Position numbers and translations under genes: made by a program
NCBI GenBank assembly: GCA_018241425.1
Contig: JAFEDU010000002.1
Span: forward strand, 434,001 to 498,000
DNA length: 64,000 nt
Direction of reading: 5' to 3'
From: Pseudomonadota bacterium
Lineage (GTDB): Bacteria > Pseudomonadota > Gammaproteobacteria > Steroidobacterales > Steroidobacteraceae
The notes under the pieces: model-generated
What the model was told of the DNA's origin: nothing
The model's database searches: none
The model's input: the letters and a program-made list of their open reading frames with translations, nothing else
Shown here: piece by piece, positions 31,704 through 34,076 of the stretch
How positions within the stretch are numbered: the stretch's first letter is position 1
Layout: every line of letters begins with the position of its first letter

Positions 31704-34076
31704 ATGAGCATCAAGTCCGACAACTGGATCCGGCGAATGGCGCGCGAGCACAAGATGATCGAGCCGTTCGCCGCGGAGCAGGTCCGGTTCGCGGACGGGC
31801 ACAAGATTGTCTCCTACGGCACCTCGAGCTACGGCTACGACGTGCGTTGCGCCAATGAGTTCAAGATCTTCACCAACATCAACTCCACGATCGTCGACCC
31901 GAAGGCCTTCGACGCCAAGAGCTTCGTGGACTTCAGCGGCGACGTCTGCATCATCCCGCCCAATTCCTTTGCGCTCGCCCGCACGGTCGAGTACTTCCGC
32001 ATCCCGCGCCAGGCTCTTGTGGTTTGCCTGGGCAAGTGCGTGACCGGCGATACGCGCGTGGTGGATGCCGAGACCGGCGCCTACGTGCCGATCACCGACA
32101 TGCACTTCGGCCGCAGCACGCTCGCGATGGACGGCTGGGAACTCGCCCCTGCGAAGGTCTCGGCATTCGTGCCGCAGGGCCGCAAGCCGGTGTTCGAGCT
32201 GCGCACCCGTGCGGGGCTGCGCATCCGCGCCACCGCGAACCATCCGTTTCGCATGCTGCAGGGCTGGGTGCCGCTAAAGGATCTCGCCGCCGGCGACCGG
32301 ATCGCGGTCGCCCGCAGCATCCCGGTGTTCGGCAAGACCGCGCTGCCGGATTGGGAGGCGAGCCTGCTCGGGCTGATGATCTCGGAGGGTCAGTGCCACA
32401 CGCCGCGCCACAGCCCCGTGTTTACGAGCGCCGACCCGGCGCTGGTCGATCTGCTCGAGAAGTCGGTGGCCGCCTCGGGTCTGGGGGAAGTCACCGCGAA
32501 GGCCGGGCTCGGGTACCGTCTCGTGAACCACCGTGGCCGCGGCGGGGTTCCGGAGCTGAACCGGGCACGCGCCTGGCTTGCGCGACACCGCCTCGATGTC
32601 GGTTCGGCCGACAAGTTCGTGCCGCAGGCGGTATTCACGGCACCGCGCCGCTCCGTGCAACGCTTCCTGCAGGCGCTGTTCGCCGGGGACGGGGGCCTCT
32701 ACCGCGGCAAGGGAGGCCTGTACCTCGAGTACTACTCCAAGTCGCGCCGCCTGATCGAGGACGTGCATCACCTGCTGCTGCGGTTTGGCATCTTCTCGCT
32801 GATCCGTGAGAAGACCACCGCAATCGGCACGCGCGCCTGCAGCATCCAGATCACCGATCGTGACCAGATCGCCCGCTTCGCTGCGGAAATCGGCTTCGTG
32901 CCGGGGTGCCAGAAGCAGCGGCGCCTGGAGCAGGAGATTCTGCCGTTGATCGTCGCGACGCCGCGCCAGCGCAGCAACTTCGATACGCTGCCTCGGGAGG
33001 CGTGGGACTTGCTGGTGCACGCCGCTCAGGCTGCTGGCCGCAGCTGCAACTCCATGGGCGTCCATATCGAACGACCTCAGTCGGTGCCGATGAGCGCCGC
33101 CGTGCGGGTTGCCGAAACCACGGGAAATCCCGAGCTGTCGTCGCTGACCGGGCAGGGCCCGCTGTGGGATGTCGTCGAAGCGATCACGCCGGCGGGGGAA
33201 GAAGACGTCTACGACATCAGTGTCCCGAGAGTCAGGAACTTCGTGGCCAACGACGTGATCGTCCACAACAGCACGTACGCGCGCTGTTTCAGCGGTGATA
33301 CCCGCGTCGCCCTGGTAGACGGGAGTAACCCGACGCTCGAGGACCTGGCCGCCCGGCTAGATGGAGGCGGAAGCTGTCGTGGATTCAGCGTCACACGTGA
33401 CAATCGGGTCGTCGTTGCCGATCTCCACCAGCCACGATACATCGGACGCGATGCCCTGCTGGAAATCACGCTGGACGACGGTGCCCGCATCCGTGCGACG
33501 CCGGATCACTCCTTCATGAAGCGTGACGGCCAAATGGTCACGGCCGACATGCTGCGGCCGGGCGACCGGCTGATGCCCCTGTACCGCGAAACCCTCGACG
33601 GGCAACAGTTCGTATATCAGCCTGGGACGGAGAGGTTGGTCAGCTTGCAGGAATTGATGTCCGCGCACGCGGCGCGCCACGGACACGGCGTTGCGGCTCA
33701 TGCCGGAGCACACATAGCTCCCGGGGCTTCACAGCCGGCTTACCGCAATCATCGCGTTGCGGCGGTGCGGACTTTACCCGGGGACCACGACGTCTATTGC
33801 CTCACGGTGCCGGGCACGGGAAATTTCGCGCTGGCGGCCGGCGTCTTTGTGCACAACTGCGGAATAATTGTGAACGTAACGCCCTTGGAGCCCGAGTGGG
33901 AAGGGCACGTGACACTCGAGTTTTCCAACACGACGCCGCTGCCGGCGAAGATCTACGCCAACGAGGGCGTCGCGCAGATGCTGTTCTTCGAGTCGGACGA
34001 GGTGTGCTCGACCTCGTACAAGGACCGCGGCGGCAAGTACATGGGGCAGCAGGGCGTGACCCTGCCCAAGACCTGA
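31704..34076 (+). CDS. dcd: dCTP deaminase precursor interrupted by two inteins
   Basis: The 790-residue precursor encodes a dCTP deaminase (dCTP to dUTP plus ammonia) in three pieces: residues 1-111, 523-527 (STYAR) and 719-790. Joined, they make 188 residues with an uninterrupted family sequence, including IVSYGTSSYGYDVRC, CIIPPNSFALARTVEYF, the junctions LGK/STYAR/CGIIVNVTPLEP and the catalytic Glu in HVTLEFSNTT. The piece between the inteins holds the conserved Ser and Arg that match Ser111 and Arg115 of E. coli Dcd. Neither unspliced nor half-spliced protein should be active. The ATG at 31704 follows apbC by 131 bases. No frameshift or stop interrupts the reading frame, so the gene looks functional. 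Confidence 0.96.
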   Translation: MSIKSDNWIRRMAREHKMIEPFAAEQVRFADGHKIVSYGTSSYGYDVRCANEFKIFTNINSTIVDPKAFDAKSFVDFSGDVCIIPPNSFALARTVEYFRIPRQALVVCLGKCVTGDTRVVDAETGAYVPITDMHFGRSTLAMDGWELAPAKVSAFVPQGRKPVFELRTRAGLRIRATANHPFRMLQGWVPLKDLAAGDRIAVARSIPVFGKTALPDWEASLLGLMISEGQCHTPRHSPVFTSADPALVDLLEKSVAASGLGEVTAKAGLGYRLVNHRGRGGVPELNRARAWLARHRLDVGSADKFVPQAVFTAPRRSVQRFLQALFAGDGGLYRGKGGLYLEYYSKSRRLIEDVHHLLLRFGIFSLIREKTTAIGTRACSIQITDRDQIARFAAEIGFVPGCQKQRRLEQEILPLIVATPRQRSNFDTLPREAWDLLVHAAQAAGRSCNSMGVHIERPQSVPMSAAVRVAETTGNPELSSLTGQGPLWDVVEAITPAGEEDVYDISVPRVRNFVANDVIVHNSTYARCFSGDTRVALVDGSNPTLEDLAARLDGGGSCRGFSVTRDNRVVVADLHQPRYIGRDALLEITLDDGARIRATPDHSFMKRDGQMVTADMLRPGDRLMPLYRETLDGQQFVYQPGTERLVSLQELMSAHAARHGHGVAAHAGAHIAPGASQPAYRNHRVAAVRTLPGDHDVYCLTVPGTGNFALAAGVFVHNCGIIVNVTPLEPEWEGHVTLEFSNTTPLPAKIYANEGVAQMLFFESDEVCSTSYKDRGGKYMGQQGVTLPKT
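32037..33269 (+). mobile_element. Intein 1 of Dcd, 411 residues, with LAGLIDADG homing endonuclease
   Basis: The intein starts at Cys112 (block A CVTGDTRVVD), has block B with TANH at 177-180 and ends with block F VYDISVPRVRNFVAND (about 501-516) and the terminal His521-Asn522; the +1 extein residue is Ser. Between the splicing halves lies a two-motif LAGLIDADG endonuclease: LLGLMISEG (221-229, acidic Glu228) and LQALFAGDG (322-330, acidic Asp329), with the connecting KFVPQAVF and a downstream HHLLLRFGIFSLIREK segment. All splicing residues and both catalytic acids are present, so it may be both splicing-competent and mobile. The block F position usually occupied by His before NF is Arg511. 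Confidence 0.95.
33270..33284 (+). other. Five-codon dcd extein segment (STYAR) between the two inteins
   Basis: Fifteen bases encode Ser-Thr-Tyr-Ala-Arg, the conserved S-x-x-x-R active-site motif of dCTP deaminases. The Ser is the +1 nucleophile for splicing of intein 1, and the Arg is the -1 residue of intein 2. Both inteins must therefore leave cleanly to rebuild the nucleotide-binding site. Confidence 0.95.
33285..33857 (+). mobile_element. Intein 2 of Dcd, 191-residue mini-intein
   Basis: It starts at Cys528 (block A CFSGDTRVALVDG), has block B TPDH at 599-602 in ATPDHSFMKRDG, and ends with block F VYCLTVPGTGNFALAAG and His717-Asn718; the +1 residue is Cys. No LAGLIDADG motif is present. 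The region 628-686 between the splicing halves contains QQFVYQPGT and LQELMSAHAARHG, which resemble the edges of HNH endonuclease inserts in other inteins, so it may be a deletion remnant (inference). YRNHRVAAVRTL before block F is typical of Hint folds. Local GC is visibly lower than in neighbouring genes. Confidence 0.92.

Follow-up and report, generated by a model that had tools for sequence, protein, structure and literature searches.

The window, by which we mean the whole 64,000-nucleotide stretch of DNA analysed, contains on its forward strand a dcd gene encoding a dCTP deaminase (Dcd) precursor of 790 codons followed by TGA, which runs through positions 31704..34076 as a single uninterrupted frame. 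All parts of the precursor lie on this strand. The Dcd N-extein (31704..32036, residues 1-111), delimited by the sequence, Pfam and the Dcd alignment, ends in CLGK and is followed by intein a (32037..33269), an element of 411 aa extending from C112 to H521-N522 that combines a Hint domain with a LAGLIDADG nuclease. Intein b (33285..33857) extends from C528 to H717-N718, comprises 191 aa and has a Hint domain without the HNH region of its full-length relatives. The only host sequence between the two inteins is the micro-exon STYAR (33270..33284, residues 523-527), which opens with Ser523, the +1 residue for intein a. The Dcd C-extein of 72 aa (33858..34073, C719-T790) completes the frame and begins with Cys719, which takes the +1 position for intein b.

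Domain searches of the precursor with Pfam revealed two stretches of DCD, two of Intein_splicing and one of LAGLIDADG_3, all families scoring above their cut-offs, and NCBIfam gave dCTP_deam (TIGR02274) above its cut-off together with two stretches each for the N-terminal and the C-terminal region of an intein. The junction and catalytic residues are all present in both elements: C112, T177-H180, H521-N522 and S523 for intein a, and C528, T599-H602, H717-N718 and C719 for intein b, where we take T-x-x-H to be intein block B. A Dcd structure with two inteins is thus confirmed far beyond chance. The sequence-only reading had described exactly this frame, with the same start, stop, coordinates and lengths, two complete inteins, and host pieces of 111, 5 and 72 residues separated in the middle by STYAR alone, and each of these points holds.

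The joined exteins rebuild a 188-residue enzyme that aligns end to end with the solved Dcd 4dhk_A (residues 1-188, E 1.3e-109). Continuity of the host sequence, which had been proposed for checking against intein-free proteins, is also seen within the window's family, where 79 of the 104 classifiable genomes contain an intein-free relative that the joined enzyme matches without interruption. In an alignment with four solved Dcds, STYAR itself falls on their gkS...R segment, in agreement with its earlier placement on the conserved S-x-x-x-R loop, presumably the nucleotide-site motif of Dcd (Ser111 and Arg115 in E. coli). Compared with the C-extein of a relative carrying intein a only, that of the window's gene shows 97.2% identity in protein and 88.0% in DNA; such stronger conservation of protein than of DNA is the pattern of a working enzyme. 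The dependence of dUTP supply on both splicing events, proposed in the sequence-only reading, is a conjecture; in E. coli, dcd is not known to be strictly essential. When the joined enzyme was searched against the window genome (4.39 Mb, 98.4% complete, 21 contigs), it matched only the gene at 31704-34076, and the sole other PF22769 match, considered as a candidate second dcd, proved to be dut. An intact second copy, named beforehand as a result that would speak against the two-intein reading, was therefore not found in this genome.

Properties of the two inteins

By sequence, the closest solved structures of intein a are DnaB inteins (6frg, 4o1r, 1mi8) and those of intein b are DnaE inteins (7qil, 2keq); in both cases the relationship is one of sequence, while the host and the insertion site differ. 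Recent tandem duplication of a single intein was rejected as an origin of the pair, as a and b share only weak similarity in the Hint blocks (BLASTP E 5e-5). A viral source of intein a was considered as well: the 80 stretches kept out of 109 related viral ones show 22-36% identity in the best segment, so that no near viral donor is indicated.

Only intein a of the two contains a nuclease domain. Its LAGLIDADG_3 match covers residues 320-397 (32661..32894), and both motif acids are kept, namely D329 inside the match (codon 32688-32690) and E228 upstream of it (codon 32385-32387). Across 12 aligned sequences, five lack the motif-1 acid and two the motif-2 acid, while all 12 retain Cys1, Thr and His of block B and the His-Asn terminus. 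Full-length relatives of intein b measure about 376 aa and carry the HNH motif HRHHID; shortened b inteins form a graded series of lengths down to 158 aa, with the 191 aa of the window among them. No HNH domain was found in the window's intein b, which, given its length, can be regarded as a mini-intein of an HNH homing lineage. At the penultimate position of b, the window's intein has His and the intein of cyanophage CL131 has Lys (see Discussion). In 109 Dcd proteins with both inteins, the usual His is in the minority at this position, with 21 proteins having His, 62 having Lys and 26 having another residue.

An AF2 model of the precursor, built with 60 sequences, reached a mean pLDDT of 76.7 and a pTM of 0.63. 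Means over 10-residue blocks were 72-98 in both inteins, except for 46-51 at residues 661-680, where the weak stretch lies near 662-675, and every block of host residues 1-110 and 721-790 fell below 60. A Foldseek search with the model returned inteins as top matches. The predicted pattern would allow the two Hint domains to fold at the same time beside a still-unfolded host, but the low confidence of the host part may reflect no more than the long insertions.

Occurrence of the arrangement in other genomes

Is the double-intein gene peculiar to one genome? The best-scoring 120 of 2894 homologous proteins, all of which were parsed with none dropped before counting, comprised 109 with both inteins and 11 with a only, and a separate search for b-only proteins yielded the best-scoring 120 of 7615, again with none dropped; since both lists run from the best score downwards, the numbers of doubles and of b-only proteins are not frequencies. 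STYAR is present in all 120 proteins of the first list, and all 109 doubles in it possess Cys1 and the terminal Asn of both inteins, the exon STYAR and the +1 Cys after b. The block B T..H was found in 60/60 (b) and 59/60 (a) of the aligned doubles; the alignment was used here in place of a narrow text pattern, which missed the block of a in 12 and that of b in 53 of the 109. One carrier of both inteins is a named strain, Chromatium okenii DSM 169, in which no other dcd was found, and C. weissei DSM 5161 has a dcd with intein a only. At the same site, intein a also occurs in purple sulfur bacteria, Burkholderiales, Chloroflexi, a planctomycete and a Bipolaricaulota MAG. In one MAG, SJ706 (L109, G636), a dcd with both inteins is accompanied by an intact dcd on a separate contig, which may be contamination or a true second copy.

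These results bear on the suspicion that the window's gene is an assembly chimera or a dead copy. The structure is unusual and comes from a single draft genome in 21 contigs; on the other hand, the same structure recurs in other assemblies (109 of the best 120 proteins, and C. okenii DSM 169), no other dcd was found in the genome, and the extein is conserved more in protein than in DNA. We therefore consider a chimera or a decayed gene extremely improbable. Precursors of this kind, which the sequence-only reading had suggested looking for in databases, turned out to be numerous, and the arrangement is a recurrent one.

Within the window's family, 107 of the 110 genomes that are at least 90% complete matched the joined enzyme (three had no match), and 104 of these 107 could be classified, the remaining three being split at contig ends; intein-bearing sites were verified on the loci. 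Seventy-nine genomes have an empty dcd, five carry a only, 17 carry b only and three carry both, these last being the window genome, G153 and G176. With the window genome left out, a occurs in 7/103 and b in 19/103, from which 1.3 doubles are expected compared with 2 seen; the numbers are small, and the census is close to independent acquisition of a and b. Among the matches listed for 398 genomes of the phylum, only the window's own genome has a or b, and the others are matches to Dcd pieces; this comparison covers the listed matches apart from several long frames, G481, G384 and G408 among them.

The distribution is also relevant to the idea that the two inteins act as a host switch on dUTP supply, both being spliced conditionally. 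Their position on the nucleotide-site loop would suit such a role, and two mycobacterial DnaB inteins differ in their response to stress, according to the accessible text of PMC6195587. However, 79 of the 104 classifiable family genomes manage with no intein in dcd, and gain or loss of either intein is seen among relatives. We thus regard regulation by double splicing as improbable.

Inteins are not confined to dcd in the window genome. Outside the window, the replicative helicase DnaB, an error-prone DNA polymerase and a B12-dependent ribonucleotide reductase (L245, L246 and L247) are intein-bearing. In addition, a frame of 1425 aa for the aconitase AcnA (L248:231-4505) contains an intein-like segment matching an RtcB-intein model at residues 495-910, and this host lies outside DNA metabolism.

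Relationship between the neighbouring inteins

Another important question is whether a and b travel separately or together. Trees of both inteins were built with FastTree, with loci failing the parse left out and, for a, identical sequences left out as well. For the a tree (143 rows), a minimum of 20 switches between presence and absence of b was counted (shuffled labels average 29), and a minimum of 15 when only branches with support of 0.95 or more are considered (shuffles average 19). The corresponding minima for a on the b tree (260 rows) are 35 switches (shuffles average 82) and, at the same support, 8 (shuffles average 12). The neighbouring intein has thus been repeatedly gained or lost, while doubles also cluster, and the deficit of changes relative to the shuffles on both trees indicates that the pairing is partly due to joint descent or joint transfer. 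One case is provided by Chromatium: between C. okenii (a and b) and C. weissei (a only), intein a shows 80.9% DNA identity, close to the 83.0 and 84.3% of the extein flanks, which indicates that b was gained or lost within the genus.

The pairwise distances of a and b are correlated after removal of extein distance (partial r 0.376, permutation p 0.001, 106 of 109 doubles), although the extein, with its low variation, serves poorly as a control; this correlation is compatible with co-homing or joint descent. In the best-scoring lists, full-length b is found in 37/120 b-only proteins versus 16/109 doubles (Fisher p 0.0046). When independent pairs on the b tree were compared, nuclease loss in b showed no specific tie to the double state (with only 8 pairs on well-supported branches, a number too small to be decisive), and within the doubles full-length b showed no association with the nuclease state of a (Fisher 0.16).

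These observations can be read in another way, in which the nuclease of a moves both inteins. As b lies 15 bp from site a, repair of a break at a would copy b too, and b could then lose its nuclease without any disadvantage. The absence of a nuclease domain from b next to an intein a with both motif acids, the correlation of distances beyond the extein, the clustering of doubles on both trees and the commoner full-length b in b-only proteins are all in line with such co-homing. It is opposed by the lack of the nuclease-loss association in the few independent pairs and by the near-expected number of doubles in the family (2 versus 1.3 with the window genome left out). Moreover, work on Haloferax shows that neighbouring inteins interfere in homing, two active neighbours hindering co-homing (accessible text of PMC10643990). 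Taken together, we consider movement of both inteins by the nuclease of a unlikely.

Additional insertion site

A Thermoflexales MAG (L124:2680-6627, JAUQXC010000528.1) encodes a Dcd of 1315 residues with three inserts, a (412), b (376) and c (341), site c lying 12 host residues after b. The targeted search revealed a combined with c in two further proteins and b with c in one (P0242, P0243, P0244). The c insert starts with Cys and ends with Asn before Cys, and Hint models match it only below their cut-offs; judged by these sequence features, it is likely an intein, a reading weaker than for a and b. The +1 residue at site c is Cys in all four c alleles and Glu in 240/240 c-free proteins of the two best-scoring lists. 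In the class to which the MAG belongs (150 genomes, 80 of them matched), no further c inserts were present among the matches listed, and G747, a relative with a 92% identical N-extein, carries b only. A span of 17 host residues thus accommodates sites a, b and c, for which the alleles a+b, a+c, b+c and a+b+c were all found.

Discussion

Our preferred explanation, which we hold with high confidence, is that the locus encodes a Dcd with two complete, separately mobile inteins flanking STYAR, predicted to excise themselves in either order and to leave the 188-residue enzyme. Intein a would be spliced at K111/S523 with Ser523 as the acceptor nucleophile, and intein b at R527/C719 with Cys719 in this role. 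Each Hint domain would act alone, giving intermediates of 599 or 379 residues depending on which autonomous reaction comes first. The existence of a-only and b-only relatives shows that each intein tolerates the absence of the other, and two ordinary autonomous reactions in either order are the most likely course. Points against this explanation are the variable penultimate residue of b among relatives, the clustering of doubles on the trees and the correlated distances of a and b.

As to origin, we suggest that a is of LAGLIDADG and b of HNH ancestry, and that each would have targeted the one conserved nucleotide-site loop as a separately mobile element. With two or three separate homing targets on a single conserved loop, stacked alleles would arise repeatedly. 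Having lost its nuclease, b is now probably passed on by vertical inheritance or taken along by a. A bolder version, in which three sockets (gaps of 5 and 12 residues, occupied in every pairwise combination and all three at once) form a hotspot where one nuclease carries a nuclease-less neighbour and the whole spreads as a unit, seems doubtful to us.

Dcd was thought in the sequence-only reading not to be a well-described intein host, which does not stand. The cyanophage vB_AphaS-CL131 encodes an intein-containing dCTP deaminase, gp069, for which self-excision in E. coli is reported, and earlier cases in two bacteria (Proteobacteria and Chloroflexi) are cited there as reference 67 (accessible text of PMC6293099). 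The phage protein shares with the window's gene the enzyme, a related Hint type and the exact site of b (STYAR|C..N|CGII); it differs in having a single intein with an HNH nuclease and nothing at site a. Double inteins are also known. Two inteins of an archaeal helicase are likewise separately mobile within one gene, occurring singly and together, but both have active LAGLIDADG nucleases, whereas the Dcd inteins are five residues apart and the nuclease of b is lost. Between the inteins of the T. kodakarensis DNA polymerase and of P. abyssi CDC21 there are 85 and 48 host residues, respectively (accessible text of PMC8966425), compared with five in Dcd.

In the literature covered, which excludes many subscription papers, including the source of the earlier bacterial Dcd cases, we found no Dcd with two or three inteins, no site c, no exon shorter than five residues between inteins and no report of self-excision for an intein at site a. 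The main texts of the Thiomargarita paper and of PMC2814812, as far as accessible, do not mention a deaminase. Thus, Dcd inteins and double inteins are known already, and the Dcd pair and site c were not found in print; we do not claim priority.

The finding is of interest in several respects. In this gene, 602 intein residues are packed into a 188-residue enzyme, with insertion points only 15 bp apart. Its relatives provide a natural allele series, consisting of empty, a, b and a+b forms, in which named strains represent a+b (Chromatium okenii DSM 169) and a (C. weissei DSM 5161). The arrangement raises the question of how a pair of Hint active sites can operate at a distance of five residues, and it could serve splicing engineering.
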